Source of the DNA: a virus
Reading direction: 5' to 3' (one strand)
Length of the DNA stretch: 25,852 nt
IMG/VR virus record: IMGVR_UViG_3300030118_005287
Location: 14,774 to 40,625 of that record
Shown here: piece by piece, positions 549-20,600 of the stretch
Position numbering within the stretch: position 1 is the stretch's first letter
Layout of the letters: each line of letters starts with the position of its first letter
Notes under the pieces: generated by a model
The model's database searches: none
The model's input: only the letters and a program-made list of their open reading frames with translations
Told to the model about the DNA's origin: nothing
Program-made: the position numbers and the translations under genes

Positions 549-570
549 ATTTACTTAAAATACTAAAAAA

Positions 571-720: not shown

Positions 721-778
721 ACAAAATGATATTTTTTTAGTCTAAATAACATTATTAAAACCAAAATTCAGTAAAATT

Positions 779-940
779 ATGGTAATTCATGTAGACAGTG
801 TTACAAAAATCATGAAAGAAACCTGTAATACAACTAAATTAATCACTGATTACCCAATTGGGGATGATAAAAAGGTTATTCGTGAGGTCATGCATGATGA
901 TGATAACTTTGAAGAGAAAGATATTAATCTAAATGAATAA
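779..940 (+). CDS. Small hypothetical protein with acidic C-terminus, 53 aa
   Basis: The frame opens at ATG 779 (MVIHVDSVTKIMKETCNTTK...) and ends with TAA at 938-940. It has 13 acidic and 7 basic residues, and the negative charge is concentrated near the end (DDDNFEEKD, residues 40-48). The N-terminal half could form one helix; no domain is recognised. No good Shine-Dalgarno site precedes it. The gene fills the gap exactly between the basic 49-aa gene and the late promoter of gp25, and a minus-strand frame over the same bases has no protein-like character. Real gene likely; function unknown. Confidence 0.6.
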   Translation: MVIHVDSVTKIMKETCNTTKLITDYPIGDDKKVIREVMHDDDNFEEKDINLNE

Positions 941-957
941 TTTTCTCTAGAATTAGG

Positions 958-965
958 TATAAATA
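958..965 (+). promoter_or_regulatory. T4-type late promoter TATAAATA before gp25
   Basis: An exact TATAAATA, the -10-like late promoter octamer read in T4 by gp55 with the sliding clamp, ends 20 nt before the gp25 ATG in the short gap after the 53-aa gene. The following bases are AAGA, matching the downstream context of the other two copies in this window (TATAAATAWAGA). Confidence 0.8.
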
Positions 966-985
966 AAGAAGAAAACTCATGACCA

Positions 986-1387
986 ATGGCAATTAAGGGA
1001 ATATCAAGAGCATTCAAGGACATTAACCTGTCTTTTAATCGCCATCCGATAACAAATGACGTTACAGTACTAAAAAATGAGAATGCGATCAAGAGATCTG
1101 TAAGAAATATCGTGAATACAATACCTAGAGAAAGGTTTTTTAACCCAGAATTAGGTTCAGATGTTCGTTCAAGTCTTTTTAACTTCGTTGATTTTGGATC
1201 AGCGTCTGTAATTCAGAAACAAATTCAAATTTCGATTGAAAATTTTGAACCTAGAGTTGATAATTTACAAGTAAACGTATTTCCAAGACCAGATTCGAAC
1301 GAATTTGAGATTAATGTGTTATTTGACATTATTGGTCAACAGTTTCCCACCCAAGAGTTCACATTTTTACTAGAGGCAACTAGATAA
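986..1387 (+). CDS. 25: Baseplate wedge subunit gp25
   Basis: The 133-aa product matches the GPW/gp25 family in length (T4 gp25 is 132 aa) and pattern: an N-terminal 'FKDINLSFNRHPITNDV' segment, the central 'IVNTIPRERFFNPELGSDVRSSLF' type block (residues about 41-64) and a C-terminal beta half ending 'FTFLLEATR'. In T4, gp25 joins the inner wedge to the tube-sheath end and acts with gp6 and gp53 in starting sheath assembly. The family was once called lysozyme-like but is structural. The start at 986 is preceded by AAGAAGAAAA; an ATG at 979 in another frame gives only a 5-codon mini-frame. It is the first gene after a late promoter, and gp6 starts 2 nt after its stop codon. Confidence 0.93.
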   Translation: MAIKGISRAFKDINLSFNRHPITNDVTVLKNENAIKRSVRNIVNTIPRERFFNPELGSDVRSSLFNFVDFGSASVIQKQIQISIENFEPRVDNLQVNVFPRPDSNEFEINVLFDIIGQQFPTQEFTFLLEATR

Positions 1388-1388
1388 C

Positions 1389-3278
1389 ATGCCTTTTACA
1401 CAATTTTCTAACCTTGATTTCGATCAAATAAAGACCCAGATCAAAAATTATCTTCGTGCAAACAGCACATTTACAGATTTTGACTTTGAAGGGTCAAATT
1501 TTTCTGTGTTAATTGACACTCTCGCATATAATACATACATATCCTCATTTAACGCAAATATGGTGGTTAATGAGTCATTTTTAGACTCGGCAACACTGCG
1601 TGAAAACGTTGTATCACTGGCAAGAAACATTGGTTATGTACCACGTTCCAGAACGGCAGCAACAGCGGGAATAACCTTTGAAGTTACAAGTGCCACACCA
1701 ACACCTACAATGACTTTAAAGGCAGGTCTGGTGTGCGTTGGTAATTTTGATGAGACATCATTTGTGTTTTCAATACCTGAAGATATTACAACAACCACTA
1801 CATCTAGTGGTAGTGGAAGTAAAGCAGTATTTGGTACAACTGATGCTCCAATTAAAATTTTTGAAGGTTCATTCTTAACAAAACGATTTACATTTGATGG
1901 TTCATTAGATGAAAAGTTTATTTTAAATAATTCATTTATTGATACTTCAACAATAGTTGTATTTGTCGGAGATCGAGAATATAAAAAAGTAGATAATATA
2001 CTAAGAGTTGATAAAGATTCGGAAATTTTCCTAATTCAAGAAGTTCAGGACGAAAAATACGAAATTTTGTTTGGTGATGGAATAATTGGTAAAAAACTTG
2101 AAAATGACGTAAATATTACCGTAAGTTATATTACAACTAATGGAAAATCTGGCAATGGACCTGCATTTTTCTCATTTGCTGGAAATATTGTTAATTCAAC
2201 TGGAGTAAGTGTAACTCCTGTTAATACACCAAACATAGTAACAATAACTTCTGCTTCAAATGGTGGAGAAATTGAAACAATTGACTCAATTAAGTATTTT
2301 GCTCCTCGTTTGTACTCATCTCAGTATCGAGCAGTGACTTCAAGGGACTATGAAGCGATAGTTCCTCTAATTTATCCAAATACTGAATCAATATCTGTAA
2401 TAGGTGGTGAAGATTTGGATCCACCTCAGTTTGGAACGGTTTTCATATCAATAAAACCCAGAAACGGTGAATTTATATCAGATTTTGATAAAGTTCAAAT
2501 ACTCAATAACCTTAAAAACTATTCTTTAACAGGAATTAATCAAAAAATAGTAGATCTTCAGATATTATTTGTTGAAATCGATTCATTTGTATATTATAAC
2601 TCAGCTCAAGTTACAAATGTAGATGATTTAAAAACCCGTATCACAAGTGCTCTAACAACTTACTCACAATCAAGAGAAGTTAACAAGTTTGGTGGTAGAT
2701 TTAAGTATAGTAAAGTTTTAAACGTAATTGATACTGTTGATAAGGCAATTACATCAAATATTACACGAGTTACGATTCGAAGAAATTTACAAGTTCTTCC
2801 AAATCAGTTTGCTCAATATGAATTATGTTTTGGTAATCAATTTAATGTAAAACCAGGTGGATTTAATATTAAGAGCTCAAAATTCTCAATCGCAGGAGAA
2901 ACTGGTGAATGTTTCTTAACAGATACACCAAATCCAGATTTAAAAACAGGAATTATTTCTATTGCTAAAACAGATCCAAGAAATAATGAAGATACTGTCG
3001 TAGCACAATCAGCGGGAACAGTTGATTATATAAAAGGAGATATAAATTTAACAACAGTTAATATTACTTCTACAGCAAGACCAAATAATGTAATCGAAGT
3101 TCAAGCGTTTCCAGAATCAAACGATGTTATTGGTTTGAAAGACATATATCTAGATTTTAGTATCAGTAATAGTACAATAAATATGATAAAAGATACCATT
3201 ACTTCTGGTGAGAAGATTTCTGGTGTAGGATTCAAAGTAACATCTAGTTATAACAATGGAGAAAAATTTAGAGGATAA
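1389..3278 (+). CDS. 6: Baseplate wedge subunit gp6
   Basis: The 629-aa protein is close to T4 gp6 (660 aa). The N-terminal block (residues about 31-92) has 'FEGSNFSVLIDTLAYNT', 'NESFLDSATLRENVVSLAR' and 'GYVPRSRTAA', the hallmark of gp6/baseplate J-like proteins. A second conserved block (about 307-360) has 'LYSSQYRAVTSRDYEA' and 'GTVFISIKPRNG'. In T4, gp6 dimers form the continuous ring that holds the six wedges together around the hub. It lies directly after gp25, with AGAGG upstream of the start, and 3 nt before the giant gene, so the three are surely co-transcribed. The C-terminal 100 residues are Ser/Thr/Asn-rich and less conserved in character. Confidence 0.93.
   Translation: MPFTQFSNLDFDQIKTQIKNYLRANSTFTDFDFEGSNFSVLIDTLAYNTYISSFNANMVVNESFLDSATLRENVVSLARNIGYVPRSRTAATAGITFEVTSATPTPTMTLKAGLVCVGNFDETSFVFSIPEDITTTTTSSGSGSKAVFGTTDAPIKIFEGSFLTKRFTFDGSLDEKFILNNSFIDTSTIVVFVGDREYKKVDNILRVDKDSEIFLIQEVQDEKYEILFGDGIIGKKLENDVNITVSYITTNGKSGNGPAFFSFAGNIVNSTGVSVTPVNTPNIVTITSASNGGEIETIDSIKYFAPRLYSSQYRAVTSRDYEAIVPLIYPNTESISVIGGEDLDPPQFGTVFISIKPRNGEFISDFDKVQILNNLKNYSLTGINQKIVDLQILFVEIDSFVYYNSAQVTNVDDLKTRITSALTTYSQSREVNKFGGRFKYSKVLNVIDTVDKAITSNITRVTIRRNLQVLPNQFAQYELCFGNQFNVKPGGFNIKSSKFSIAGETGECFLTDTPNPDLKTGIISIAKTDPRNNEDTVVAQSAGTVDYIKGDINLTTVNITSTARPNNVIEVQAFPESNDVIGLKDIYLDFSISNSTINMIKDTITSGEKISGVGFKVTSSYNNGEKFRG
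3271..3274 (+). promoter_or_regulatory. Shine-Dalgarno site (GAGG) for the giant protein
   Basis: GAGG lies 7 nt before the ATG at 3282, inside the last codons of gp6. It supports 3282 as the true start of the 4,248-aa frame, and no late promoter is seen in the 3-nt gap, so expression depends on the gp25 promoter. Confidence 0.6.
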
Positions 3279-3281
3279 AAT

Positions 3282-6200
3282 ATGATTTCAACCACTGGAG
3301 GATTAGATACTAGAGTTAATATTCAACAAATAATTGAAAATCAATTACCAGAATTTTTATTATCTGAGAGTCCTAATGCTGTAGAGTTTTTTAAAGCATA
3401 TTACCTCTCTCAAGAACATCAGGGTGGTACAATTGATATTATTGATAATTTAGATCAATATTTAAAATTAGATAATTTAACACCAGAAGTAGTAGGGTCT
3501 GGAACCACACTTTCAATTGGAATTGGAACAGATGATAAGACTATATTTGTTGATTCTACAAAAGGATTTCCTAAACAATTTGGTCTTTTTAAGATTAATG
3601 ATGAAATAATAACTTATTCTGGCATTGGTTCAACTTCATTCACTGGATGTATACGTGGTTTTTGTGGAATAACAACATATAATTCTACCGATAATCCAGG
3701 TCAACTAGTATTTTCAACTTCATCTGCGAGTGTTGGAGTAGCAAATACAACCGTTACTAATTTAAGTTCTTTATTCTTAAAAGAATTTTATAAAAAACAA
3801 AAATTTACATTAACACCTGAATTAGAAAATTCTACTTTTGTACCTTCACTTAATGCTGGTAATTTTATCAAAGAAGCAAGCACTCTTTATCAATCAAAAG
3901 GAACTGAAGAATCTTTTAGAATATTATTCAATGTTTTATATGGAGTAAATCCAAAAATTATTGATTTAGAATCCCTTTTATTAAAACCATCAGCAGCTGA
4001 ATTTATTCGACGTGAAATTCTAGTGTGTCAGTCAATTAGTGGCGATCCTCTTAAACTTAAAGGACAATCTGTTACAAAATCAACGGATTTTTCAACTAGA
4101 GGTGCTGTTTCAGATGTTGAACCATTAACTTCTAAAGAGGGTAATCTATACTATAAAGTAAGTTTATTCGTTGGTTTTAATGATGTTGATTTAATACAAG
4201 GAACATTTACAATACCAGGTAAAACAAAGGTAATTGGAAATATTGGTGTTGGTGCAAGTGTTGTAACCGTAGATTCAACTGTTGGATTTAGTACAGTTGG
4301 AAACTTTATATCTGGTATTAATACTGTCACATACACAGATAAGACTGTAAACCAATTTTTAAATTGTTCTGGAATTACATCTTCAATTTCAACATCATCT
4401 GATATTAGAGCTGATGAGACTATTTTTGGATATGAGGATGGAGATTTGACTAAAAAGGTCGAATTAAGAATTACTGGAGTAATATCTGACTTTAAACCAG
4501 TATCAGATATAGTATTGATAAATGAAGGAGAAGAAATTGGTATTAGAAATTTAGGAGAACAAATATTAAATCCCGAAGTAGATAAAACTAAAAAAGAAAT
4601 TAATAGTAATTCATGGATTTATAATACTGCCTCTCGTTTTCAGATACAGGCACCATATAATGCATCTAATAAATCAACTCCAGTATTACTATCAGATGTT
4701 GACAGATCACAGTTAAAGAAAGGTGATAATATTGAAATATTAATAAGAGGAGAACAAATAACACAGGCAACAGCTATTGTAGATAATATTAGTGATAGAC
4801 AAATTAACTTAGATGAACTAACAGCAGGTTTTGTTCCAAACTCTAATCAACTATACGACATAAGAAGAAAGTTAAAGACTACATCTAGCAGTGAAATTGA
4901 TTTACAATTTGGAAATGATATCTTAACATCAGATATAACAAACATATATGTTGAATCAAATAAAAATATATATGCAGCATCAAATTCATTGCCATCTTAT
5001 GAAATAAATGTTGGAGTTGCTAGAACAAATGCATCAGATGTACAAAATTTTAACAATATCACAAATAAATTTTCTGAAATTTCTTTTAGATTAGATGTAC
5101 CATTTATTACAGGTGATGAAATAATATACAAACCAAGTGGAGATCCAATTCCAGGATTAGAATCAGGATCAAGATATTTTGTAAGAGTTAGACCACCAGT
5201 AGGTAAAGTTAGTAATAAAATTAATCTTTATGTGTCTGCTTCCTTTATTGCTAAAGATTTAGAAGAAGGAACTAATACATTTGTTGAATTTGGTGATCTT
5301 CCAACAGGATCTGGTGCTGGTGATCATAAGTTTATATTATCAAGACATAGTTCCGAAATAATAAAACCTCAAAAATTATTTAAACAGTTTCCAATTAAAC
5401 CAAATATTGAAAATGGTAATGCGATTGAAACATTACCAGGAAAAACTGGCATGTTAATAAATGGTGTTGAAGTAACTAATTACAAATCTTCTGATAGAAT
5501 TTATTTTGGACCATTAACAGAAGTATCAGTTTTTAAAAAAGGTAAGAATTATGATGTAATTAATCCTCCTACAGTTAAAATATCAGATTCTCCCACTGGA
5601 TCAGGAACAACAGCTCTCGCACAACCAGTTATAATTGGAAAAATAGAAGATGTACAAGTAGATCAACAAAATTATGACATAGACAGTGTTGGTTCAATAA
5701 CTGTTAAGGGAGGTAATGGAATTGGAGCTGTTTTACAACCAATTGTTACTCAAAGATTTAGAGAACTAAGTTTTGATGGAAGACAAAAAGTAAACGCTAT
5801 TGTAGGTGGAGTTGATATTGATAATGAAACTATAACTTTTAATACAACTCATAATCTAAATGATGGGCAAGCTTTGGTTTATGATAGTAATGGTAATCCT
5901 CCGATTGGAATTAATACTGGTGGATCAAATCTTGCTAAAGTGGGAATTGATACTAGTCTTCATCATGGGGCGGTATATTTTCCAAAAATTATAGGTATAG
6001 GTAATTCTGTAAAATTATTTTCATCTAAAGCAGACTTCATATCTGGTATTAATACTGTAGGATTTACAACAATTAATACGAGTGGTGTTCATAAATTTAG
6101 ATTAAAAGATGGTAAAAATCATTTACGTTCAGTTAAAGTTTTAAATTCTGGTGAAGGATATGCAAATCGAAAATTACTAGTAAAACCTGTAGGAATATCA

Positions 6201-9200
6201 ACCATTAAAGATACTGTTCATTTTAAAGATCATGGATTTAAAGATAATGAATTAGTTCAATATTCTGTAGAATCTGGAGGAACAGTAATAACAGGTTTAT
6301 CAACTACAAATCAATATCGAATTATTAAAGTTAATGATGATAAATTTAGAATTGCTAACGCTGGTATTGGTGGAACAATAACATCAAATTACGATAGAAA
6401 TAATTATGTAAAATTTGATAGTATTGGTGATGGACATCAAATTTTTGAATACCCACCAGTTCAATTAGTGGTTGATGTCAAATATTCTAAAGTTGCGGTA
6501 GCTCTAACTGAATCTCTTACATTAACACCAATTATAAGAGGAAATATTGAACAAACTTATTTGTATCATGCTGGAACTGGATATGGATCAACGGTTTTAA
6601 ATTTTGAGAAAAAACCTACTATTACTATCAAAACTGGTCAATTAGGAGTATTTAAACCTCTTATTAAAGAAGGAAAATTAATCGCTGTAGATATTGAAAA
6701 TCAAGGTGAAGATTATAATGCTGCTCCAGACCTTCTTATCGAAGGAGATGGATTTGGAGCTTCTGTAAGAGCTATTGTTGAAAGTGGAAAGATTACTGAT
6801 GTTAAGATTCTTAATTCGGGAACAGGATATACACAGGATAAAACTTCAATTTTAGTAACTTCACCTGGTTCTGAAGCATTATTAGAATCAAAAGTTAGAA
6901 TATTAAATGTAAACAATTATAGATTTGCTGAAGAATTAGATTCATCAGATAAATCAGCTATATTATCAGAGGTGGGGTCTAATGGTTTAAGTTATTCATT
7001 TGTTGGTTATTCAGTTGGTATTGGAAAATCATCATTCGGAGATGATGATAGTAGTACACATTCACCTATTATTGGATGGGCATATGATGGAAATCCAATC
7101 TATGGACCTTATGGACACTCTGATCCAATGGATGATAACTCTAGCATTATTCTATTAACACCAGGATATGTTAAAAACGTAGGTATTGTAAGTGATAGAC
7201 CTACAGGATTTAGTGAAGGTTTCTTTATTGAAGATCATTCTTTTAATGGAAGTGGAGATTTGGATGAAAGTAATGGTAGATATTGTAGAACTCCAGATTA
7301 TCCTAATGGTGTATATGCTTATTTTGTAGGAGTTTCTACAAACCTAACAACTGGTAAACTTGAACCAAAATTCCCATACTTTATAGGTGATACTTATCGT
7401 TCAGATCCACCAGAAGAAAATTTCTTAATTAATCAATCCACTTATGATTTTAATAAAAAAACGATAGCAAGAAATACATTCCCATATAAAGTTGCCGATA
7501 AATTTGCTGATAATGATTTTATCGTAGAATCAAATGAGTTAGTGGATCAAATTTCTTTTGTGGATTCTATTTCAAAAGGTGTAGTTGATTCTTTTGATAT
7601 TATTGAATCTGGTTCTGGTTATAAAATTGGTGAGAATGCAAGTTTTGACAATACAGGAACAAATGGTGGTGGATTAACAGCATCTATAAAATCTTTGACG
7701 GGAAAAAATCTTTTAGATATAAACACTAATGTAGAAAATTGGCAGAATGTAGTTTTTACATGGAATAGTCCAAATCAAGTTTCGGGTTATATATCAACCT
7801 CACATTCATTAAAAGAAAAAGATAATATTATCGTTTCTGGGTTATCGACAACGATATCAGGTTTAACTAGAAATCATCAAATTGGTATTACAACATCAGT
7901 TGCTTTTCTTTACAAAGATCTTGGTAATAGTGAGGGAGCAACTGTGGGTGTTGTCACTGACATTTATGTTTCAACAATACCTAGTTTTGTATCTGTAGGA
8001 AGTAGTATAGGAATCGGAACTGAAAAATTAAAGATATTGAATATATTTGATGATCGAAATATTTTAAGAGTTACCAGAGGGGAAAGTGGAGTCGCACATA
8101 CTTTATCAACTCAAGTTAATTATCTTTCTAATTATTTTTCAATTCCAGTAAAAACATCATATTTTGAATCAAGAGTTAATGATATAGTATATTTTAATCC
8201 AAATGAATCTATTGGAGTGGGAACTATTGTTGGTTCTGCCACAACAGTTAATGTTAGTCGAGGCATTTTAACAGTTCCAATATCAGTTGATGCTCAAAGT
8301 ATATTCATTCCAAATCATCCATTTACACAAAATCAACAAGTTTCACTTAATATTCCAACTGGTGGAAATGTACTTTCTATATCAACAATTTCAAATTTAT
8401 CACCACAAGATTTAGGAGTTAGCGGTGGTAGTGTTAATGTTTTCGTTATCAATAAATCTAAAGATTATATTGGATTAACAACTCAAATTGGAATATGTAC
8501 CAACGGTGTTTTCTTTCATGATAATTCATCAAATAAATTTGATTATTTCTTTGAATCTAATTATACTCAAGTAACTGGTAAAATTGAAAAAGTTGTTTCT
8601 ACATTATCAATATCAACTTCAATATCAACTTCTCATGGAATGTTGAATAATGATGTTATATCTTTATCATTAAATCCAAATGAAACTGTTGGTATTGGAA
8701 CTTCAACTGCTGTTAGAGTTAAATTTAATTCAAAAGAACAGAAATTATTGGTCAATCCTGTTACATTTGGAGCATCTAGTGTAAATACAACAACAAATAC
8801 TATTACTATAAGTGACCATAACTTAATTACTGGTCAAAAAATATTTTATGATGGTGGAAATAATCAAATAACAGGACTCTCAACAGGAGTATATTACACT
8901 TATCGTGTTGATGATAATAATTTTAGATTAGGTGAGACTAGAAAGGATGTATTAGAGGATTATCCAATAATAATTAATTTAACAGGCACAGGAGGTACTG
9001 GTCAAGAATTTTCTTTAATTAATCCACCAATATCTGTTATTAGAGATAATAATTTAAAATTTGATCTAAGTGATAGTTCACTTACAGGATATAATTTTAA
9101 ACTATTTTATGATAGTAAATTCAACAATGAATTTGTTTCAACAGGAACTACCACCACTAATTTAATCACTCGAACAGGTACGATTGGTTCTGGAACTGCC

Positions 9201-12200
9201 TCACTTACATTAAATCATAATATTGATACTCCTAATCTCATATATTACACACTAGAAAAATCTGGATTTATTAGTACTTCTGATATTGATGTTAATAATT
9301 TCTCTCAAATTAATTATGAAGAAAGTCCATATAATGGTGAATATAGTATTTCTGGTGTTGGTGTAACAACTTTTGATATTTCACTTAAATCTGTTCCAAA
9401 TTCCTTAAATTATACAACTTCAAATACAAATACACTTAAATATACAACCTTATCCAAAACAGCTACAGGTGGAATTGATAAGATGTTAATATCTTTTGGT
9501 GGAATTGAATATAAAAAATTACCTATATTCACTGGAATTACTTCTACAAATGGAATTAATGCAAACATATCACCAAAATCAAAAACAGCAAATAGAATTA
9601 ATAGTGTCAATATTATTAATCAGGGTTTTGAATATGCTTCTGATCCAACACTTAGACCAGAGGTTCTTATATCTCCAATTATAACAATTAGAGACTCTGG
9701 AACTCTTTCAACTGTTTCAATCATTTCTAGTGGAAAGAATTATATTATACCACCAAAATTAATAGTTGTAGATCCTACTACTAATGAAAGAGTTAATAAT
9801 GGAATGTTGGAGGCTGTATTATCATCAGGTGGTATTGTTGATGTTAAGATCATAGATCCACCAAAAGGTCTTTCTTCTTTAGAGCAAAGAATTGTATCTG
9901 TAGATAATACAAATGGAATAACCATTGATAGTGTGACATATGATTCTGTAAACAATAGAGTTTTATGTACATTAGCAACACCAACGTTAGGGTTTAATCA
10001 AGCACCATTTTTGGCAGGAGATAAAATATTTGTTGAAAATATTTTAAAATCAGGAACTAGTGGAGATGGTTTTAATTCTAATGATCATGGATTTAAATTT
10101 TTTAATGTATTACCAAATACTGAAGGATCACAATTAGATTCTAATCCTGTTGTTGTTGCTTTTAGTTTAGATAATTTCACAAATGATCCTGGAACACCTA
10201 TCACAACTCAAGATGGATATGCGATAATGATTAGGGAATCAGATGTGCCATCTTTTACATCAACTCAAAAGTTAGGGTTTTTCAGAATTGGAGAAAAAAT
10301 TTCAGTTTTAAAAAATAATTCTTTTATTCCAACTGATTTAAAAATAACTAGTAGTTTAGCTAATTCAATTAAAATTTTTGGAAAATTTAGATTGAATGTA
10401 AATGATAGAATTAAAGGTGAAACAACAGGAACAAGAGCTACGATTAATACCTTAATTGAAAATTTAGCAACATTTGATGTTGATTATGCTTTAAGAAAAG
10501 ATACTGGATGGAATGATGATATTGGTAAATTAAGTTCTGATAGTCAAGTACTAGCTGATAATGACTACTATCAAAATCTATCATATGCCGTTCAAAGTCC
10601 ACTTGAATATGAAACTTTAGTTAATTCTGTAAATCGTCTATTACACCCAAGTGGATTAAAGAATTTTGCAAATGTTGGTATAGGATCAACAACTAAAGCA
10701 GGAATTTCAACTGATACTAATGTAACAATGATTAATCAAGATTTGATTACTCATAATAGGGTAGATGAAATTAATATATTCGATAATGCTAAAGATGTAG
10801 ATGTATCATTAAATAGATCAAGATTTTTAGAAATACAAAACAAAAAATTAACTAGTTATATTGAGTGTAAAACTAACAGAGTATTAAAAATTGATGATAT
10901 TAGTTCTGAATTCGCAAGTTCATCAGTTCTTGGTCAAAAAAGTCCTAACATTATTTTAGATGACGAATATAATAATCTTTTAGTTCAAATCATAGACACC
11001 GCCACTAATAATATTCAATCCACTGAGTTAACAATTTTTAGAGATTCTACAGATATATTCACATTAGAAAAAGCTAATGTATCAAATACAAATGATTCAC
11101 TTATAGATGTACGAAGTAAAATTGAAGATAATATATCTATTCTTTCATTATTACCTAAAGTTGTTAACTCTAATTTTGCTATTAAAATTTATGATAGTTC
11201 ATTTAATACATCTTCAATAGGAATATCTACACAATCAGTTGGATTTATTGATTTAGTTGGTGTGACAACTACTGTGGGCATTGGAACTTCTACTAATATT
11301 ATTTCAGTTGATAAAGATAAGTTAGATGCTTACAAAGCAAACTTTGAAATAACTGATAATGTTACTGATGAAAAAAGTATTGTCGATTTATATTTAACAC
11401 ACGATGATACTGATGCTTATAAAGCAGAAGTATTTACAGATACTGGATCACTAGCGTCATTCTCATCTAACTTTATAGGAACATTTCATTCAAATATTAG
11501 TGGTGGAATTTTATCTTTAAATTATGAAAATACAAGCACTAATCAAGTTTCAGTAAGAACTAAAATTGTAGGATTTGGAACAACTGCCTCTGGAATTTCA
11601 ACTTTTAGATTTAAAGATTCTGGTCAAGCTGATGGAACAGAAAGATCTATGAAATTTGAATCTTCATTCCTTAATATTGGAGTTTCAACTGGAGGAACCG
11701 CTTTTGATGCTACTTCACCTGGAGTTTATGTTGGAGATTCTCCATCTGGAATTAGTTCAACAGTTGTTTCAACAATAAAAAGTAATATAAGAGTTTCTAT
11801 TGGTGAAACAAGTGCTATTCACCAATTATTAACTGTTTGGGATGGAAATGATGCGTATACAACTCAATATCCATTTGTTTCCATTGGAACAACCACTGGT
11901 ATTGGTACATTTACATCAAATGTAACAGACGCAATAAGAATACAATTTATTCCAGATGCCCAATGGAATGGACAATCAATTAATATACAAAGATTTGATG
12001 AAATAATTTATACTGATAGTGACAAATTAAATATAGCTCCAGATTTAACTTATGGAGCAATTACTGAATCTTTATCAACATTTGAATTTATATCAGCTGG
12101 TAATCAATTAGATAAAACAGATTTTGATCTAAAACATAATGATATTCCTATTTTTGAAAAAACATTCAATCCTTCTGGGACTGGTATTAACACTACTACT

Positions 12201-15200
12201 GGTTTATTTACAATTACAGATCATTTCTTTAATACTGGTGAAAAATTAATTTACACTCCAACTTCAACATTTACTGGAATTGCTGGAACTGCGATGCAGA
12301 TGTCAAATGGTTCTCCATTACCAACAGAAGTTTTTGCTGTTAGAGAAACTAAAGATACCTTTAAACTAGCGACATCAAGAGCAAATGCATTAGCAACCAC
12401 ACCAACAACAATTACCTTTACAGGACAAAGTGGTGGAAATCTTCATAAACTAGAGATGTTTAAAAAACTTGAAAAGAGTGTAATTCTTATTGATGGTGTA
12501 ATACAATCACCACTATCATTTACACCAACAACTACTACACTACAAAGTAACAATGGAACTGTTGGAATTGGAACAACTATTTTTAATGTTGTTGGATTAT
12601 CTTCTATTGTACCAAATTCAATTTTAAAAATCAATGATGAATACTTAAAAGTTAATTTAGTTGGTATTGGTACAAGTAATTCTGGTCCAATAAGTGGAAT
12701 CGGAACTTATAATCTAGTAACTGCTGAACGTGGATATGTAGGAACATCAACTGCTTCACATAGTGATGGAGATACTGTTAGAGTTTATTCTGGATCATTT
12801 AATATTGTAGGTAGTAAAGTTCATTTTACAGATCCTCCAAAGGGTGCTGCCACAACGTTAAAGAATTCATCTAATCTTGATTTTATAAGATCTTCTTTTG
12901 ATGGAAGGGTTTATTTAAGACAAGATTACACAAATAATAGAATTTTTGATGATATTTCTCAAAGTTTTAATGGCATATCATCATCATTTACAATGAAAGT
13001 TGGTGGAGCAAATACTACTGGTATTGCCACTGGAAGCACTCTTGTTCTTCTAAATGGAATATTTCAACAACCATCAACCTCAAATAATTCAGATCAAGAT
13101 TATAGTTTTATTCAAACTGGTGCTGGACATACTGGAATTACAACTGCTGTCTTTACTGGTATAACAACTGTTAAGTCTGATGGATCTACTGGAACTATAG
13201 TTCAAAATACTTCAGATTCAAACGCAAACAAACTTCCTAGAGGTGGAATAATTGTATCAGTAGCGTCCACGGGTGGAATGGGTGTTGCTCCACTTCAAGG
13301 TGCGATTATAAGACCTTTAATCGGAGCTGGTAAGTCAATTAGTGGATTCATTGGAATTCCAACTACTGGAGCGTCATTAGCAATTAGTACGGCTACGTAT
13401 GACAATGTATCTGGAGAACTACAGATTACAACAGAGACAGATCATAATTTTAGATATCCAAATGAATTTGTACAATTACGTAATTTAGAATTTGCTGGTA
13501 ATATTTCTGGAACTGGCACTAGTACAATATTCCCAGATACAGCTAGTGATAAACCATTTTCTATAATTTCAATAGAATCTAGACATCAATTTACTGCGAG
13601 TGTGGGAGTAGGAACTACTACACACGCATTCTTAGGATCCTTTGGACCTCTTAATAGAACTGGTATTGCCTCAGCTTATTATGCTGATTTAAATGTAGGA
13701 TCTGGATATTTTGCTTCTGGAATTGGTGTCACAGTTTCTGTAGAAGATTTGGAGTTTGAGCATAGATTTGTAAGTTCAGGTATTAATTCAATCACATCTA
13801 ATGTTGGAGGAGCATTCACAGCAACCAATGCTGAGTATGTTTCTTCAACAGGAGTTTTAACATTAACAATTCCTAATCATGGATTAACAACAAGTAATAC
13901 TATTGGAATTGCCACAGGAGGATTGGTCTTTACTTGTTCTAGAGATAATTTTACAACTGTCCATCCATATCCAAGAACCACTGATCCAGCACATAACGCT
14001 AATTTAGCGATAGGTTCTACTTCAATTAATACTATTACAGTTAACGTAGGTCCTGGTGGTGGAGCTGGAACAGGAGCAAATGTGACAGCAGTTGTTGGTG
14101 CTGGTGGAACTTTAACTTTTGATATTACAAGTGGTGGAAGTGGTTATGTAAATCCAGTGATATCAGTATCTCCACCTTCATATGAAAATTTACCAGTGGT
14201 TGGAGTTTCTAGATTAGGAGTTGGTGCTACCACAGAACTTGGAAATGGAACTTTGATTAGTGTTGAAGTTGGATCAGGAACCTCAGTTGGAATTGGAACA
14301 ACTTTAGTTTCAGTAAAATCATTTAAAATTGTTAATCCAGGTTTTGGGTATCAAGTTGGGGACGTATTTAAACCTGTAGGGTTAGTTACATCATCACAAC
14401 TTTCACAATTAGTGAGTGATTTAGAATTTACAGTTACTGAAACATTTACAGATAAATTCTCTTCATGGGATTTTGGAGAATTTGATTATATTGATTCGAT
14501 ATACTCATTACAGGATGGTAAAAGAACAAGATTCCCATTAATATACGAAGGAGAAATTGTAAGTTTTGAAGTAGATAAAAATGATCCACTGTCATCATTA
14601 ATAGAATTAGAACCATTACTTTTAATCTTTGTTAATGGAATTCTTCAAAATCCTGGTGAGTCTTATATATTTGAGGGTGGTACATCTATCGTATTTGCTG
14701 TTCCTCCAACAGTAGATGATAATATTGATATATTTTTCTATAGAGGAACAGTTGGTGTAGATAGTCTTTTAGTATCTGTAAGACAATCTTTAAAGAAGGG
14801 AGATAATGTAAAACTCTTAAAAGGTAATTTTACCAATTCTAAACCATCACAAGATTCAAGAACAATTACAAATTTAGTTCAATCTGATACAATTAAAACA
14901 AACTTATACTTTGGTCAAGGTATTGAACCAAATGTAGGTGGTAAATCCAGACCATTAAAATGGGCAAAACAAAAAGTAAATAAAGTAATTGATGGAGATA
15001 TCGTTTATAAAAATAGAAATCTTTATGAACCTCTCGTCTATCCAACTTCTAAAATCATTGCGGATGTTTCATCTACTGATACTAACATATTTGTTGACAA
15101 TGCTCAATTCTTTGATGAGGATGGACTAATAAGTAATAACAAAACAGATGGTTTAATTATTCCATCTGGTAGTGTGGTAGCAGCTGCGATTACTGCTATT

Positions 15201-16028
15201 GTTTCTGCTGCTGGAACTATAAGTTCACTATCAATTGTAAATGGGGGTCAGGGATATGTTGGATCCTCAACTTCATTGGTTATTGGTATTCCAACAACTG
15301 GAATTGGAGTTGGAGTTGGAACAACAGCAACAGCAACAGCAACAATAACCAATGGTGGTATTACTACAACAACAATTGTAAATCCAGGTTTTGGTTATAC
15401 TTCCGATATTACACCACAGGTTATCGCACCTACACCATTCCTACAAACTGAATTAATTCAAAATATTACAACTGTTGAAGGATTCTCAGGTATTATTACA
15501 GGAATAAGTACAACGAGACCAACATCTACTAAATTAGCGTTAGAATTTTATCTAAGTAAAGATAGTGGAAATTATTCTGATTTATTAGTTGGATATCCTA
15601 TTTACATTTACGATACTACTGTTGGATCGGGTGTAACATCTCTATGGAATAATAACAATAATAATGTTGTAGGTATTGGAACAACTTTCTTAGATAATGT
15701 TTATCGTATCAAAGAAATTAGTTCTGTTGGAACTAGAGGTCTTGTTACTTGCTTTGTACATACAGGTCTTACTACATCAACAATTGGAAATTATAATGCT
15801 GCTGGCATAGCAACTGCAACTCCTGTTGGACTCAATAGTGAAAGTCCAACATCACTTGGTAAATTCAGTTGGGGTCGATTAACTGGAATCACAAGAAGCA
15901 CATTACCAATAGCTATTGGTGTTACTGGATCAACAATTGGGTTGTCCACAGCACTTGGAATAACCACCTTCCCAACCATTCAAAGAAGGGGTGAGGGTTT
16001 AAATGACAGTGGTGCTTTAGACATATAA
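3282..16028 (+). CDS. Giant modular baseplate protein at the gp7 position, with YHYH domain (4,248 aa)
   Basis: This gene fills nearly half of the window and stands where T4 has gp7 (1,032 aa). The N-terminus (1-240) has 'LPEFLLSESPNAVEFFKAYY' and, at 207 on, 'GTEESFRILFNVLYG', a tail-protein motif consistent with a wedge role. Other segments that look conserved in marine T4-like phages, from memory, are about 690-860 (KLFKQFPIKP, NGVEVTNYKS), 2408-2465 (DNDYYQNLSY, LLHPSGLKNFA), 3781-3820 (FVNGILQNPGESYIFEGG then FYRGT) and the C-terminus 'IQRRGEGLNDSGALDI'. Between these lie beta-rich repeats: GxGY motifs, 'HGF..G..V.Y' modules, an RG...H module and a YHYH domain at 1261-1349. There are few cysteines, no signal peptide and no clear coiled coil. 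Intact frame with a Shine-Dalgarno start. Role as gp7 counterpart and peripheral baseplate or host-contact protein is inferred from position and modules. Confidence 0.88.
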   Translation: MISTTGGLDTRVNIQQIIENQLPEFLLSESPNAVEFFKAYYLSQEHQGGTIDIIDNLDQYLKLDNLTPEVVGSGTTLSIGIGTDDKTIFVDSTKGFPKQFGLFKINDEIITYSGIGSTSFTGCIRGFCGITTYNSTDNPGQLVFSTSSASVGVANTTVTNLSSLFLKEFYKKQKFTLTPELENSTFVPSLNAGNFIKEASTLYQSKGTEESFRILFNVLYGVNPKIIDLESLLLKPSAAEFIRREILVCQSISGDPLKLKGQSVTKSTDFSTRGAVSDVEPLTSKEGNLYYKVSLFVGFNDVDLIQGTFTIPGKTKVIGNIGVGASVVTVDSTVGFSTVGNFISGINTVTYTDKTVNQFLNCSGITSSISTSSDIRADETIFGYEDGDLTKKVELRITGVISDFKPVSDIVLINEGEEIGIRNLGEQILNPEVDKTKKEINSNSWIYNTASRFQIQAPYNASNKSTPVLLSDVDRSQLKKGDNIEILIRGEQITQATAIVDNISDRQINLDELTAGFVPNSNQLYDIRRKLKTTSSSEIDLQFGNDILTSDITNIYVESNKNIYAASNSLPSYEINVGVARTNASDVQNFNNITNKFSEISFRLDVPFITGDEIIYKPSGDPIPGLESGSRYFVRVRPPVGKVSNKINLYVSASFIAKDLEEGTNTFVEFGDLPTGSGAGDHKFILSRHSSEIIKPQKLFKQFPIKPNIENGNAIETLPGKTGMLINGVEVTNYKSSDRIYFGPLTEVSVFKKGKNYDVINPPTVKISDSPTGSGTTALAQPVIIGKIEDVQVDQQNYDIDSVGSITVKGGNGIGAVLQPIVTQRFRELSFDGRQKVNAIVGGVDIDNETITFNTTHNLNDGQALVYDSNGNPPIGINTGGSNLAKVGIDTSLHHGAVYFPKIIGIGNSVKLFSSKADFISGINTVGFTTINTSGVHKFRLKDGKNHLRSVKVLNSGEGYANRKLLVKPVGISTIKDTVHFKDHGFKDNELVQYSVESGGTVITGLSTTNQYRIIKVNDDKFRIANAGIGGTITSNYDRNNYVKFDSIGDGHQIFEYPPVQLVVDVKYSKVAVALTESLTLTPIIRGNIEQTYLYHAGTGYGSTVLNFEKKPTITIKTGQLGVFKPLIKEGKLIAVDIENQGEDYNAAPDLLIEGDGFGASVRAIVESGKITDVKILNSGTGYTQDKTSILVTSPGSEALLESKVRILNVNNYRFAEELDSSDKSAILSEVGSNGLSYSFVGYSVGIGKSSFGDDDSSTHSPIIGWAYDGNPIYGPYGHSDPMDDNSSIILLTPGYVKNVGIVSDRPTGFSEGFFIEDHSFNGSGDLDESNGRYCRTPDYPNGVYAYFVGVSTNLTTGKLEPKFPYFIGDTYRSDPPEENFLINQSTYDFNKKTIARNTFPYKVADKFADNDFIVESNELVDQISFVDSISKGVVDSFDIIESGSGYKIGENASFDNTGTNGGGLTASIKSLTGKNLLDINTNVENWQNVVFTWNSPNQVSGYISTSHSLKEKDNIIVSGLSTTISGLTRNHQIGITTSVAFLYKDLGNSEGATVGVVTDIYVSTIPSFVSVGSSIGIGTEKLKILNIFDDRNILRVTRGESGVAHTLSTQVNYLSNYFSIPVKTSYFESRVNDIVYFNPNESIGVGTIVGSATTVNVSRGILTVPISVDAQSIFIPNHPFTQNQQVSLNIPTGGNVLSISTISNLSPQDLGVSGGSVNVFVINKSKDYIGLTTQIGICTNGVFFHDNSSNKFDYFFESNYTQVTGKIEKVVSTLSISTSISTSHGMLNNDVISLSLNPNETVGIGTSTAVRVKFNSKEQKLLVNPVTFGASSVNTTTNTITISDHNLITGQKIFYDGGNNQITGLSTGVYYTYRVDDNNFRLGETRKDVLEDYPIIINLTGTGGTGQEFSLINPPISVIRDNNLKFDLSDSSLTGYNFKLFYDSKFNNEFVSTGTTTTNLITRTGTIGSGTASLTLNHNIDTPNLIYYTLEKSGFISTSDIDVNNFSQINYEESPYNGEYSISGVGVTTFDISLKSVPNSLNYTTSNTNTLKYTTLSKTATGGIDKMLISFGGIEYKKLPIFTGITSTNGINANISPKSKTANRINSVNIINQGFEYASDPTLRPEVLISPIITIRDSGTLSTVSIISSGKNYIIPPKLIVVDPTTNERVNNGMLEAVLSSGGIVDVKIIDPPKGLSSLEQRIVSVDNTNGITIDSVTYDSVNNRVLCTLATPTLGFNQAPFLAGDKIFVENILKSGTSGDGFNSNDHGFKFFNVLPNTEGSQLDSNPVVVAFSLDNFTNDPGTPITTQDGYAIMIRESDVPSFTSTQKLGFFRIGEKISVLKNNSFIPTDLKITSSLANSIKIFGKFRLNVNDRIKGETTGTRATINTLIENLATFDVDYALRKDTGWNDDIGKLSSDSQVLADNDYYQNLSYAVQSPLEYETLVNSVNRLLHPSGLKNFANVGIGSTTKAGISTDTNVTMINQDLITHNRVDEINIFDNAKDVDVSLNRSRFLEIQNKKLTSYIECKTNRVLKIDDISSEFASSSVLGQKSPNIILDDEYNNLLVQIIDTATNNIQSTELTIFRDSTDIFTLEKANVSNTNDSLIDVRSKIEDNISILSLLPKVVNSNFAIKIYDSSFNTSSIGISTQSVGFIDLVGVTTTVGIGTSTNIISVDKDKLDAYKANFEITDNVTDEKSIVDLYLTHDDTDAYKAEVFTDTGSLASFSSNFIGTFHSNISGGILSLNYENTSTNQVSVRTKIVGFGTTASGISTFRFKDSGQADGTERSMKFESSFLNIGVSTGGTAFDATSPGVYVGDSPSGISSTVVSTIKSNIRVSIGETSAIHQLLTVWDGNDAYTTQYPFVSIGTTTGIGTFTSNVTDAIRIQFIPDAQWNGQSINIQRFDEIIYTDSDKLNIAPDLTYGAITESLSTFEFISAGNQLDKTDFDLKHNDIPIFEKTFNPSGTGINTTTGLFTITDHFFNTGEKLIYTPTSTFTGIAGTAMQMSNGSPLPTEVFAVRETKDTFKLATSRANALATTPTTITFTGQSGGNLHKLEMFKKLEKSVILIDGVIQSPLSFTPTTTTLQSNNGTVGIGTTIFNVVGLSSIVPNSILKINDEYLKVNLVGIGTSNSGPISGIGTYNLVTAERGYVGTSTASHSDGDTVRVYSGSFNIVGSKVHFTDPPKGAATTLKNSSNLDFIRSSFDGRVYLRQDYTNNRIFDDISQSFNGISSSFTMKVGGANTTGIATGSTLVLLNGIFQQPSTSNNSDQDYSFIQTGAGHTGITTAVFTGITTVKSDGSTGTIVQNTSDSNANKLPRGGIIVSVASTGGMGVAPLQGAIIRPLIGAGKSISGFIGIPTTGASLAISTATYDNVSGELQITTETDHNFRYPNEFVQLRNLEFAGNISGTGTSTIFPDTASDKPFSIISIESRHQFTASVGVGTTTHAFLGSFGPLNRTGIASAYYADLNVGSGYFASGIGVTVSVEDLEFEHRFVSSGINSITSNVGGAFTATNAEYVSSTGVLTLTIPNHGLTTSNTIGIATGGLVFTCSRDNFTTVHPYPRTTDPAHNANLAIGSTSINTITVNVGPGGGAGTGANVTAVVGAGGTLTFDITSGGSGYVNPVISVSPPSYENLPVVGVSRLGVGATTELGNGTLISVEVGSGTSVGIGTTLVSVKSFKIVNPGFGYQVGDVFKPVGLVTSSQLSQLVSDLEFTVTETFTDKFSSWDFGEFDYIDSIYSLQDGKRTRFPLIYEGEIVSFEVDKNDPLSSLIELEPLLLIFVNGILQNPGESYIFEGGTSIVFAVPPTVDDNIDIFFYRGTVGVDSLLVSVRQSLKKGDNVKLLKGNFTNSKPSQDSRTITNLVQSDTIKTNLYFGQGIEPNVGGKSRPLKWAKQKVNKVIDGDIVYKNRNLYEPLVYPTSKIIADVSSTDTNIFVDNAQFFDEDGLISNNKTDGLIIPSGSVVAAAITAIVSAAGTISSLSIVNGGQGYVGSSTSLVIGIPTTGIGVGVGTTATATATITNGGITTTTIVNPGFGYTSDITPQVIAPTPFLQTELIQNITTVEGFSGIITGISTTRPTSTKLALEFYLSKDSGNYSDLLVGYPIYIYDTTVGSGVTSLWNNNNNNVVGIGTTFLDNVYRIKEISSVGTRGLVTCFVHTGLTTSTIGNYNAAGIATATPVGLNSESPTSLGKFSWGRLTGITRSTLPIAIGVTGSTIGLSTALGITTFPTIQRRGEGLNDSGALDI
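7062..7328 (+). other. YHYH domain within the giant baseplate protein
   Basis: Residues 1261-1349 read 'GWAYDGNPIYGPYGHSDP', then 'FIEDHSFNGSGDLDESNGRY' and 'YPNGVYAYFVG'. The AYDG(N/F)PIYGPYG core and the final NGxYAYF strand are the signature of the YHYH family, which is known from secreted bacterial proteins and phage structural proteins and has no established biochemical activity. The domain sits between GxGY-type beta repeats, and its nucleotide composition does not differ from its surroundings, so any acquisition is old or from a similar genome. Confidence 0.85.
8607..8630 (+). repeat. Tandem 12-nt repeat (2 copies) in the giant gene
   Basis: TCAATATCAACT occurs twice head to tail, giving the peptide SISTSIST just before a 'SHGMLNNDVISLSLNPNE' module. 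It is in frame, so length change by slippage here would keep the gene open. Confidence 0.7.
15325..15342 (+). repeat. CAGCAA hexamer, three tandem copies, in the giant gene
   Basis: Three perfect CAGCAA units encode alternating Thr/Ala (TATATAT) between the GIGVGVGT and ITNGGITTTTIVNPGFGY segments. It is a short in-frame microsatellite in the C-terminal beta region. Confidence 0.65.
15648..15665 (+). repeat. Six-Asn run in the giant gene
   Basis: Five AAT codons and one AAC encode six Asn residues (4123-4128) between 'VTSLW' and 'VVGIGTTF'. It is a likely surface loop; a low-complexity tract rather than a functional motif. Confidence 0.6.
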
Positions 16029-16064: not shown

Positions 16065-17660
16065 ATGGCTGCAATTGTAACAGATCAATTTAGAATTCTA
16101 AATGCTAACAACTTTATAGAAACTGTAGAGAATTCTGCGAATTCTTATTATATCTTTTTAGGTTTAACAGATCCAGGAAGTGGTAAGTATGGAAGAAAAG
16201 CAGATGAAAATACATGGAACACTGACACTCCTGTCCCAGAGGATAGTATTAATGATGTAAATCACATTTCAGATACTATGATCTTTGGTAAAAGAGTCAC
16301 AAGTGATAATATTCGAAGATTAGTTAAAAGAAGGGATTGGGCTGCTGGCACTAGGTATAACATGTATCGTCATGATTATAACTCAGAGAATCCAGCACCA
16401 ATATCAGATGCTCAAAGATTATATGATGCTGATTATTTTGTAATGAATAAAGACTTTAATGTTTATATTTGTATTGATAATGGTTCTTCAGGAATTAATA
16501 CTACTGGAAACGCTTCTCAAGATGAACCAACATTCACTGGATTAGAACCATCTAGAGCTGGTGAAAGTGGAGATGGATATATCTGGAAATTTCTTTTTAG
16601 TGTTTCTCCAAGTGATATTATAAAATTTGACTCAACAGATTTTATTTCTGTTCCTAGTAATTGGTCCACATCAGACAATGCTCAAATTAAAGCAGTTAGA
16701 GAGAATGGCGATTCTACGATTAATGGTAACCAAATTAAAAAAGTATATATTGACAATCAAGGAAATGGATATAAGGATGGTTTAGGACAAGAGGTGAGCA
16801 TTTTAGGTGATGGAACAGGAGCTAGGGTTGTTTTAGATATTGTTGGTAGTAAAATTACAGATGCTGTAGTTTCTTCTGGTGGTAAAGGATATACTTTTGG
16901 AATAGTTGATTTGGGAACATTAAATGGTAGTGTAAATCCTGCTGCAACTGGTGTATTTTCAAAATTAATTCCAATCATACCTCCAGCAAAAGGTCATGGA
17001 TCAGATATATACAAAGAGTTAGGAACTGATAAGGTTTTACTTTATGCGAGATTTGATGACAAAGATAAAGATTTTCCTATCGACACTAAATTTGCTCAAG
17101 TGGGAATTATTAAAAATCCAACATCAATTGGGTCAACTAATGTATACACTGGAAGTTCATTTTCATCTTTAGGAGCAATTAAATTTGTTGATAGTACAAC
17201 ACTTGCTCCAGTAGTAGGTGAGGTTATAAATCAAAAACTTCCTAACGGAAACACTGCATTTGGAATTGTTGCATCATATGATGATGATACAAAAGTTTTG
17301 AAATTCTATCAAGATCGTTCTTTGTATTTTAATCCAACAACAAATGATCAAACAGATCGTGTTGGTGTTTCAACTGCATCAATAGTTTTTGATTTTGATA
17401 ATGATACAACAGGTGGTGCTGTTCCAGCAAACGTAGAGTCTGTAAGTGGATTTACTGGTCAAATTCAAACAACATTTAGTGGAATTACCACAAATCCAAC
17501 TGGAACAAAATTAATTAGTCTAGGGACTGAATTTACTGATGGTCTTTCTGAACCAGAGATAAATAAAGGGTCTGGCGAAATAATTTACTTAGATAATAGG
17601 TCGTTGATATCTCGAAATGCTCGACAAAAAGAAGACGTTAAAATCATCTTGGAATTTTAA
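16065..17660 (+). CDS. 8: Baseplate wedge subunit gp8
   Basis: The 531-aa product opens 'MAAIVTDQFRILNANNFIET', then 'SYYIFLGLTDP', 'YNMYRHDYNSENPAP' and 'NVYICIDNGSSG...QDEPTFTGLEPSRAGESGDGYIWKF', which is the gp8 pattern of T4-like marine phages. The end, 'SGEIIYLDNRSLISR' with 'KIILEF', is also typical. T4 gp8 is 334 aa and binds gp7 and gp10 in the wedge. The extra length here includes two GxGY beta motifs (DNQGNGYKDG near 228 and SSGGKGYTFG near 269) of the type found in the giant upstream protein. It follows its own late promoter and lies 3 nt before the DUF4815 gene. Identity secure; the role of the insertion is unknown. Confidence 0.93.
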   Translation: MAAIVTDQFRILNANNFIETVENSANSYYIFLGLTDPGSGKYGRKADENTWNTDTPVPEDSINDVNHISDTMIFGKRVTSDNIRRLVKRRDWAAGTRYNMYRHDYNSENPAPISDAQRLYDADYFVMNKDFNVYICIDNGSSGINTTGNASQDEPTFTGLEPSRAGESGDGYIWKFLFSVSPSDIIKFDSTDFISVPSNWSTSDNAQIKAVRENGDSTINGNQIKKVYIDNQGNGYKDGLGQEVSILGDGTGARVVLDIVGSKITDAVVSSGGKGYTFGIVDLGTLNGSVNPAATGVFSKLIPIIPPAKGHGSDIYKELGTDKVLLYARFDDKDKDFPIDTKFAQVGIIKNPTSIGSTNVYTGSSFSSLGAIKFVDSTTLAPVVGEVINQKLPNGNTAFGIVASYDDDTKVLKFYQDRSLYFNPTTNDQTDRVGVSTASIVFDFDNDTTGGAVPANVESVSGFTGQIQTTFSGITTNPTGTKLISLGTEFTDGLSEPEINKGSGEIIYLDNRSLISRNARQKEDVKIILEF

Positions 17661-17663
17661 AAA

Positions 17664-20600
17664 ATGCCACAGAAAACCAATTTAAATATAAGTCCTTATT
17701 ATGATGACTTCAGTAAGGATAAACAATTTTATAAAGTCTTATTCAGACCAGGATATCCAGTTCAAGCTAGAGAATTAACGACTTTACAATCTACTTTACA
17801 GAATCAAGTAGAATCTTTTGGTAATCATATGTTTAAAGAGGGATCAATGGTGATTCCTGGAAACATAGCTTTTGATAATCAATATTATTCAATTAAATTA
17901 CTATCAGATCATTTAGGACTCCCGATAACATTATATCTTGATAATTTAAAAGGAAAAAGATTAAAAGGTCAAAATTCTGGAGTTGTTGTATTCGTTGAAG
18001 ATTGTAGAGTGCCTTCAGATTCAAGTGATATTACTGATATAACTCTTTTTATCAAATATGTAACATCTGGAACTAATAATGAAGCTGGTTCTCTTGAGGA
18101 TGGAGAAAATCTTTTAACAGAGGAATCTTTTGTATATGGAAATACTCCAGTAAATGTTGGAGATAGTGTTGCAACACTTATTCCTTTAGACTCATCATAT
18201 GTTGGGAGTGCTGTTGGTATATCAAGTGGGGTATATTTTATTCGTGGTTCTTTTGTAGATGTATCAAGTGATAAAATTATTTTAGATCCATATTCAAATA
18301 CACCATCATATAGAGTTGGTTTAACAATTCAGGAGGAAATAATTGGTGCCAAAGATGATGAATCTTTGTTTGATAACGCAAGAGGTTTTTCTAACTTTGC
18401 AGCACCAGGTGCTGATAGATTAAAAATATCCACAGTTTTGAGTAAGAAAAATTTAGATGACTATAATGATAAAAGTTTTGTTGAAATTATAAAATTAGAT
18501 TTAGGAGAAGTTAAAAAAATTAAAACTCCGACTGAATATAATATAATTAAAGATTATTTCGCAAAAAGAACTTTTGAAGAATCTGGTAATTATTCAATTA
18601 ATAATTTTAAAGTTGAAGTATCAAATTCATTAAATGATGGTGTTTCTGAAGAGGGTGTATTTTTATCAACACAAGTAACAGATGATGGTAATACACCATC
18701 AGATGATTTAATGTGTGTTAAAACTTCTGCAGGAAAAGCTTATGTTAAGGGGTATGATATTAGTAAATCAGGAACAACAGTTCTTGATGTAGAAAAACCA
18801 AGAGATAAGCAAACAAATAATGGATCTCTAATTCCCTTTGAAATGGGAACTCGTTTAAAAATTAATAATGTTTTTGGAGCACCAAAAATTTCAATCAATG
18901 AACAGTCTATAGTAAAGTTACATAGACACAGAAGAAATGTTGGAGCTGGAATTACAAATGCTGGTTCTGGAGAGTTAATAGGAGAGGCAAGAGTATATGC
19001 GTTTAACTTAGCAGATCAACCATATTTAAATAATGCCTCATCATGGGATTTATATCTTTATGATGTCCAAACATATACTAAATTAACATTAAATACCTCT
19101 ATAAGTTCAAATATATTACCAAATACTTCTTTTATAAAAGGATTAAACAGTGGTGCTACTGGATTTGTAACGACTCATGATTCAACAGCTGTAGTTGTTC
19201 TTACTCAGACTTCAGGAACTTTCTTAAAAGGTGAGCAAATAAGTATTAATGGAAATACATTACATTCTAGATCTATTAAAGAAATTGAAGTTTTTGGTGT
19301 AAAAGATATTAAATCAGTATATCAAGATAGTTCAAGTTTTGCTGGATTTACAGCAGATTTTATTGGTGATGTTGTTTTACAAAGAGAAACATTACCTGGA
19401 TTTAACTTAACAGATGTATTTCAATTTTCAGCACCAGTACCAGCAACATCTTTAACAACTGTTACATGTCCTGGTAAAAAATTTACAGGAATAGCAACGG
19501 GTAGTATTATTGGATATACTCAAACTGGTAGCTCTTTCACCGACGAATCTCTCAATAGAGTTGTAGAGATAGCTTCTGACGGTGATAGTATGACAATTAC
19601 TGGTATTAGCACCGTATCTGGAATATGTACTGGTGGATTACCTACCAGTGCATTAGAGACAACTTTATCACTGAAAGTTCCAACAATTAGTGATTCTGAA
19701 AAATCTGGATTGTTCGCTCCATTACCAGACACAAATATTTCAGATGTTAATTTATCTGGTTCAAATTTATTAGTATCAAAACAACTTACAGGTGAATCTA
19801 CTGATGGTAGTGGCGATATGACTTTTTCATTATCCGATGCTACAGGTATAAGCACAGGATTTTATGAAACATATGATCCAGCAAGATACTCTGTTCATAA
19901 AAGTAATGGAATTATTGAAACTTTATCATCAGATCAGTTTTCAATTACAAGTAATGTTGTAACATTGAAAGGAATGGAAGCAAGTTTAACTAATGCTGTC
20001 GTTTCGTCAACTATTAAAAAAATAGGGATTAAAAATAAACAAAAAGAGTTTGTTAGAAGTAATAAAGTAACCGTAAATAAAGTCGTTGGATCGGCAGCAA
20101 CAACAATATCTGGATTATCTACAAGTGCTTTCTATGGTCTTAGGATTGAAGATGAAGAAATATCTTTAAATGTTCCAGATGTAGTGGAAGTTATAGCAGT
20201 ATATGAATCCTTAGATACATCTGCACCAATTTTAGATAAATTAACTTTTGTTTCTGGTTTAAGTCTTAACACTACGACAATTTTAGGTGAAAGGATAAGG
20301 GGAGCAGAAAGTGGAGCAGTTGCACAGTTAGTGACACAATCTTCAGCAACTGAAATTGAAATTGTATATCTAACACAAAATAAATTTCAAATTGGGGAAT
20401 CAGTTACCTTTGAAGAATCAAATATTGTGACAAATCTTCAAGATATAACTACAGGAAGTTTCTTGAATATATCAAATAAGTATGAATTAGATAAAGGACA
20501 AAAACTTCAATATTATGATTATTCTAAAATTGTTAGAAAAACTGGATTACCCGCACCAGCAAGACAACTATTAATTATACACAATTCTTATCAAGTTCCA

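Follow-up and report, generated by a model that had tools for sequence, protein, structure and literature searches.

The 4,248-residue protein (P0001) encoded at 3282–16028 is almost certainly the orthologue of the T4 baseplate wedge protein gp7. Its core, which by sequence and structure comparison corresponds to T4 gp7 ∼640–900, is split into residues 11–66, 160–298 and 2407–2469, covering the SKG helix, the start of domain V, the HP segment and, more tentatively, the helical domain. The window, by which we mean the whole stretch of 25,852 nucleotides analysed, comes from a virus record of 40,625 bases, and all of its genes and features described below lie on the plus strand. Neighbouring genes were identified by Pfam and PHROG: gp25 (986–1387; PF04965, E 7e-13) and gp6 (1389–3278; PF21379, E 8e-18; phrog_219) precede the frame, and gp8 (16065–17660; PF09215, E 2e-15; phrog_438) follows it, ahead of a 2,425-residue VrlC-type protein (DUF4815), which is not gp7 (17664–24941; PF16075, E 4e-57). 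In the further phages compared, too, this gene of the wedge operon follows gp6 immediately, and in T4-like phages gp8 comes next. The first-pass annotation had described an intact frame with a Shine–Dalgarno start between gp6 and gp8, and we agree: the 4,248 codons form a single unbroken frame with a proper stop, the start lies 3 bases beyond the gp6 stop, and AGAGG is found 7 bases upstream of the ATG.

An open frame of 4,248 codons would arise by chance with a probability of ∼1e-160 at this base composition, and GC at its three codon positions is 41/41/10%. Comparison with an independent IMG/VR contig (L006) over 3,697 codons gave a dN/dS of 0.22, and the frame is therefore under purifying selection. 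An assembly artefact was ruled out by this selection, by the complete lack of N in the window and by independent contigs that are 85–93% identical. In the source record, a 10-N scaffold gap (G000:C1 14764–14773) ends immediately upstream of the window start, and the joining upstream is therefore less certain than the window itself. Separately, a 301-residue ORF at L001 12953–13858 contains a KIDGSPAVV..G stretch that resembles a motif of nucleic acid ligases or nucleotidyltransferases.

T4 gp7 has been reported to be absent from cyano- and pelagimyophages, apparently substituted by VrlC (PMC7029224). Annotation of the gene at this locus is inconsistent: it is called gp7 in the P-SSM2 GenBank entry, ‘putative fiber’ in Syn9, ‘VrlC’ in S-MbCM7, ‘virion structural protein’ in S-MbCM100 and ‘head closure Hc2’ in HTVC008M (I899_gp055), while the labels ‘gp7’ or ‘wedge initiator’ have been placed on unrelated genes in S-MbCM100 (076), S-MbCM7 (079) and S-SZBM1 (205). 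The identity of gp7 in these phages is therefore a real question. The main groups named in a tblastn search of phages with T4 gp7 include no cyanophage, and profiles were therefore needed. As a single sequence, the 4,248-residue protein drew no report of a Gp7 domain model in a Pfam search, which reported only YHYH, and nothing relevant in a search of the PDB.

A profile of residues 1–600, built from 96 sequences and run with hmmsearch against PDB sequences, placed T4 gp7 on top (E 6.5e-5), through the helix FY-SKGT-S-ILF-LY. For profile–profile comparison by hhalign, the T4 side consisted of 16 T4-type gp7 sequences, with column shuffles as controls. Residues 185–296 aligned with T4 gp7 703–814 at E ∼1e-10, and T4 gp7 ∼727–813 was matched by residues 160–298 at E 1e-9 to 1e-10. 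When this region was split, residues 160–240 (core segment 2, which carries the SKGT helix motif and corresponds to T4 gp7 727–758; 3759–4001) matched T4 gp7 733–758 at E 1.3e-9, with none of 100 shuffles as good; residues 240–300 matched T4 gp7 779–813, the first part of domain V, with a score above those of all 100 shuffles, and the corresponding feature was delimited as residues 241–298 (4002–4175). The second of the two collinear places is core segment 3 (residues 2407–2469, ‘YYQ-SY-S-HP-G’; 10500–10688), which matched T4 gp7 866–897 at E 1.5e-4, equalled by none of 200 shuffles; in the split test, with another sequence set, residues 2405–2469 matched T4 gp7 866–888, and none of 100 shuffles was as good. 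Core segment 1 (residues 11–66; 3312–3479), comparable to the T4 gp7 helical domain 643–689, aligned with T4 gp7 644–671 in the right order but weakly when taken alone (4 of 100 shuffles were as good); helices are predicted here at residues 14–61. A global hhalign alignment with T4 gp7 was meaningless and was discarded.

An AlphaFold model of residues 1–600 reached a pLDDT of 79. We judged its matches to gp7 structures by Foldseek probability, which was 0.91 for gp7 of a Klebsiella phage and 0.77 for T4 gp7, and by a second aligner, VIA, which placed model residues 5–399 on T4 gp7 636–840 with Z 8.3 and 8.0 (5iv5_BJ 636–840 and 9f4a_A0 638–840). In this alignment residue 5 of the model falls at T4 residue 636, where the range begins, ahead of the N-terminal helix pair. 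The rmsd of the gp7 rows, at 18–23 Å, is high, probably reflecting several domains in different relative placement in the model, and only the residue correspondence was therefore used. The top Foldseek rows were ribosome-biogenesis chains whose superposition was very poor; we took these as noise.

The correspondence has clear limits. Scanned segment by segment, the protein shows nothing above noise against T4 gp7 1–640, and the alignments begin at T4 ∼636–645. The T4-type N-terminal arm of 640 residues is thus absent, and the protein is therefore a gp7, though not one of the T4 type (Straboviridae). Domain VI of T4 gp7 was not found in it, and a window scan and hhalign with the remainder of the protein gave nothing above noise against T4 gp7; regions for which hhalign found no match include the C-terminal 482 residues, 690–860, 3250–3400, 3600–3720, 3770–3850 and the YHYH region. 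These results modify the first-pass annotation in several respects. It had the protein replacing gp7, but by profile and fold this is gp7 itself and not a foreign replacement; the gp7-like wedge core that it proposed is present, in pieces that a very long insertion sets far apart. Among the segments it listed as recognizable, 1–240 and 2408–2465 do hold T4 gp7 homology. The other three do not: 690–860 and 3781–3820 are conserved or repeated, but only among cyanophage relatives, and the ‘conserved-looking end’ at 4232–4248 is common to the nearest relatives only. Profile comparison with T4 gp7, the kind of check that it suggested, gave a match for the N-terminal part and none for the C-terminal 482 residues. 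Finally, the approximately fourfold growth of a gp7-like core that it envisaged is correct as to growth, but this consists of one ∼2,100-residue insertion, a ∼1,780-residue C-terminal extension and an N-terminal barrel, upon a core that lacks the first ∼640 residues of T4 gp7.

The N-terminal core is interrupted by a small beta-barrel (residues 72–163; 3495–3770), delimited by VIA and gap lengths, which aligns at VIA Z ∼10 with barrels in phage VP1, the JBD30 baseplate and GP4; its place holds ∼600 residues in Syn9, S-MbCM100 and S-SZBM1. Residues 298 and 2407 are separated by ∼2,100 residues, compared with ∼110 for the same interval in T4 gp7. This insertion (∼2,108 residues, 299–2406; 4176–10499), which the window scan, the repeat modules and the second gap all mark out, consists of beta-rich modules absent from T4. 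It includes a second beta-barrel of the same repeat type (residues 311–378; 4212–4415), found by VIA and a repeat HMM, with VIA Z ∼9 to Mystique tail tube and Chi tail tip domains. A YHYH-like domain also lies within it (residues 1256–1356; 7047–7349); this matches the second half only of Pfam PF14240 (88–187 of 193), and its core is strongly conserved (alignment A2). A profile of the YHYH region found no match in the PDB, and its AlphaFold model (pLDDT 36) was not used. Beyond core segment 3, a C-terminal extension of 1,779 residues (10689–16025) carries further repeat modules, and the searches against T4 gp7 yielded no T4 counterpart for it. The inserts contain several types of repeated beta module, and some of these also occur in gp8 or VrlC; the VrlC/DUF4815 protein carries one RG barrel and one GY-P repeat of the kinds found in gp7. 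Across the family, the first gap ranges from 88 to 605 residues, the second from 15 to 2,719 and the C-terminal tail from 5 to 3,037. What varies between phages is the length of these putative arms, not the core.

We then ran the core profiles on 16 genome regions with 1,670 ORFs in total. With the SKGT profile, one ORF per genome was picked, and this always followed gp6; among these ORFs are T4 gene 7 (E 2e-6) and orf00215 of Shigella phage Ag3 (E 3e-5). The HP profile likewise picked one ORF per genome, the gene at the gp7 position. In the pelagiphage HTVC008M, gp055 (NC_020484 33435–36485, L401), a 1,016-residue protein encoded between gp6 and gp8, is identified as the gp7 orthologue both by its position and by matches to each of the three core profiles (E 1e-9, 1e-23 and 3e-18). 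Ag3 orf00215 (L364 12093–12947), a 284-residue hypothetical protein encoded after gp6, has the three segments, the first weakly, with segments 2 and 3 just 15 residues apart; it found no match among PDB sequences, and it looks like a minimal gp7. The core profiles did not match VrlC, S-MbCM100 076, S-MbCM7 079 or S-SZBM1_205; VrlC and S-SZBM1_205 share with gp7 only the barrel repeat. Three short core profiles are therefore enough to decide, genome by genome, which of the genes is gp7.

These comparisons bear directly on the possibility that such phages have no gp7, its role being taken by VrlC, and that the 4,248-residue protein is an unrelated structural protein. That account has in its favour the published statement for cyano- and pelagimyophages (PMC7029224) and the fact that the cyanophage proteins are not readily found by tblastn with T4 gp7. 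We nevertheless find it scarcely credible. The protein matches T4 gp7 by both profile and fold, a phage covered by the published statement, HTVC008M, has a gene with the three core segments between gp6 and gp8, and VrlC is a DUF4815 protein that the core profiles do not match; by Pfam, DUF4815 is present in the gene after gp8 and not in the 4,248-residue protein. We conclude that the published claim of gp7 absence is contradicted by these comparisons. It is also very improbable that the protein is a tail fibre merely sitting between gp6 and gp8. Its beta-rich character over much of its length, its fibre-like repeat modules and the Syn9 annotation would suit a fibre, but the N-terminal segments and 2407–2469 are gp7 core, and the same position and core are found in the 284-residue Ag3 protein, which has no fibre part.

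Orthologues of the protein have been found in virions. The virion proteome of S-SZBM1 includes S-SZBM1_208 (6,619 residues, 724 kDa), with 71 peptides and a coverage of 13.5% (PMC9146016), and that of S-CREM2 includes ORF122 (1,937 residues), with 91 unique peptides (PMC10665884). The gene for S-SZBM1_208 adjoins gp6 and gp25, and its product is homologous to and collinear with the 4,248-residue protein (E 2e-51, 2e-20 and 2e-12); S-CREM2 ORF122 has the gp7 core segments. At this published peptide coverage there is room for the translated chain to be cut into several virion proteins, leaving gp7 itself small and the inserts to act separately. We think this quite improbable. S-SZBM1_208 appears as a single 724-kDa entry, although this is a database assignment and not a measured size, and because segment 3 lies 2,100 residues from segment 2, cleavage inside the insertion would leave the core in two pieces.

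The protein belongs to an already known family, and what we add is the core map, the series of lengths and a corrected annotation. Residues 7–4236 match positions 5–4178 of 4179 in PHROG 2885, ‘baseplate wedge subunit’, with 3,439 bits, and tblastn with the N-terminal 373 residues matched 462 records, all at < 60% identity, named Synechococcus, Prochlorococcus, ‘Cyanophage’ or ‘Marine’. By these matches the source phage is a cyanophage relative. Given the 462 records and the full-length PHROG match, cyanophages as a rule have a giant gp7, with 4,248 residues in the middle of the range: gp7 measures 3,274–6,619 residues in the cyanophages compared, with the exception of S-CREM2 (1,937). S-SKS1 (L093, NC_020851) was left out because its gp7 frame is broken in its record; there, the gp7 and VrlC genes are both unannotated and both broken. 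With the Ackermannvirus Ag3 and HTVC008M included, one wedge protein spans 284 to 6,619 residues, growing at fixed points. With the core map, constructs can be given defined boundaries, as can models to be docked into future tail maps of these very abundant ocean phages.

We know of no structure of a giant gp7. It is very likely that the protein is a gp7 orthologue with a split core; this core would sit in the wedge and the inserts would form arms at the rim. By analogy with T4 and XM1, the core would join two gp6 chains in a (gp6)2–gp7 wedge heterotrimer, six per baseplate, from which the ∼2,100-residue insert, the ∼1,780-residue tail and the N-terminal barrel would hang at the baseplate rim as six arms, each beta-rich and ∼0.4 MDa in mass. 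Their probable function, like that of the two spike-binding regions of XM1 gp17 and of the N-terminal arm of T4 gp7, is to hold fibres or set their position and to make contact with the cell. On balance we favour a role of the inserts as arms of the baseplate, holding fibres or touching the host. We regard as possible, but rather unlikely, the further idea that in cyanophages the apparatus for host contact is part of the wedge protein, with the gp7 inserts, YHYH-like domain included, being six built-in, covalent arms that do the work of separate peripheral proteins in T4. If this were true, evolution would be tuning insert length upon a single core. T4 gp10 matched 239 Synechococcus phage records in tblastn, and we therefore make no claim as to which T4 rim proteins are missing.

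The closest known systems are the cyanophage gp7 or ‘baseplate wedge initiator’ proteins, P-SSM2 gp7 (5,195 residues), S-SRM01 gp7 (3,895 residues) and PHROG 2885, which differ from the 4,248-residue protein in length details only. The first two share its locus order and core positions and are 40–45% identical to it over most of their length, and P-SSM2 gp7 has ∼1,000 extra residues with repeated modules near query 3415–3541. HTVC008M gp055 is shorter at both points of growth, with an insertion of 469 residues compared with ∼2,109 here, and a C-terminal tail of 204 compared with 1,779. T4 gp7 (1,032 residues) has the same order of core segments, the same gene order and a similar core fold; it differs in possessing ∼640 additional N-terminal residues and domain VI, missing or not found here, whereas the 4,248-residue protein has ∼3,900 residues within or after the core. 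T4 gp7 is monomeric, occurs six times and makes contact with gp6, gp8, gp9 and gp10 (PMC3004832). At the minimal end, the gene of Ag3 orf00215 adjoins gp6, as here, while fibres or spikes are separate proteins. Fibres or spikes are separate proteins also in the case of the 242-residue gp17 of Vibrio phage XM1, compared by published description only, which is the third chain of the wedge, is described as a T4 gp7 orthologue, and binds spikes via a loop inside domain I and via its C-terminus (PMC10457771). The extra sequence of the protein described here lies within and after the N-terminal core, resembling the two spike-binding places of XM1 gp17.
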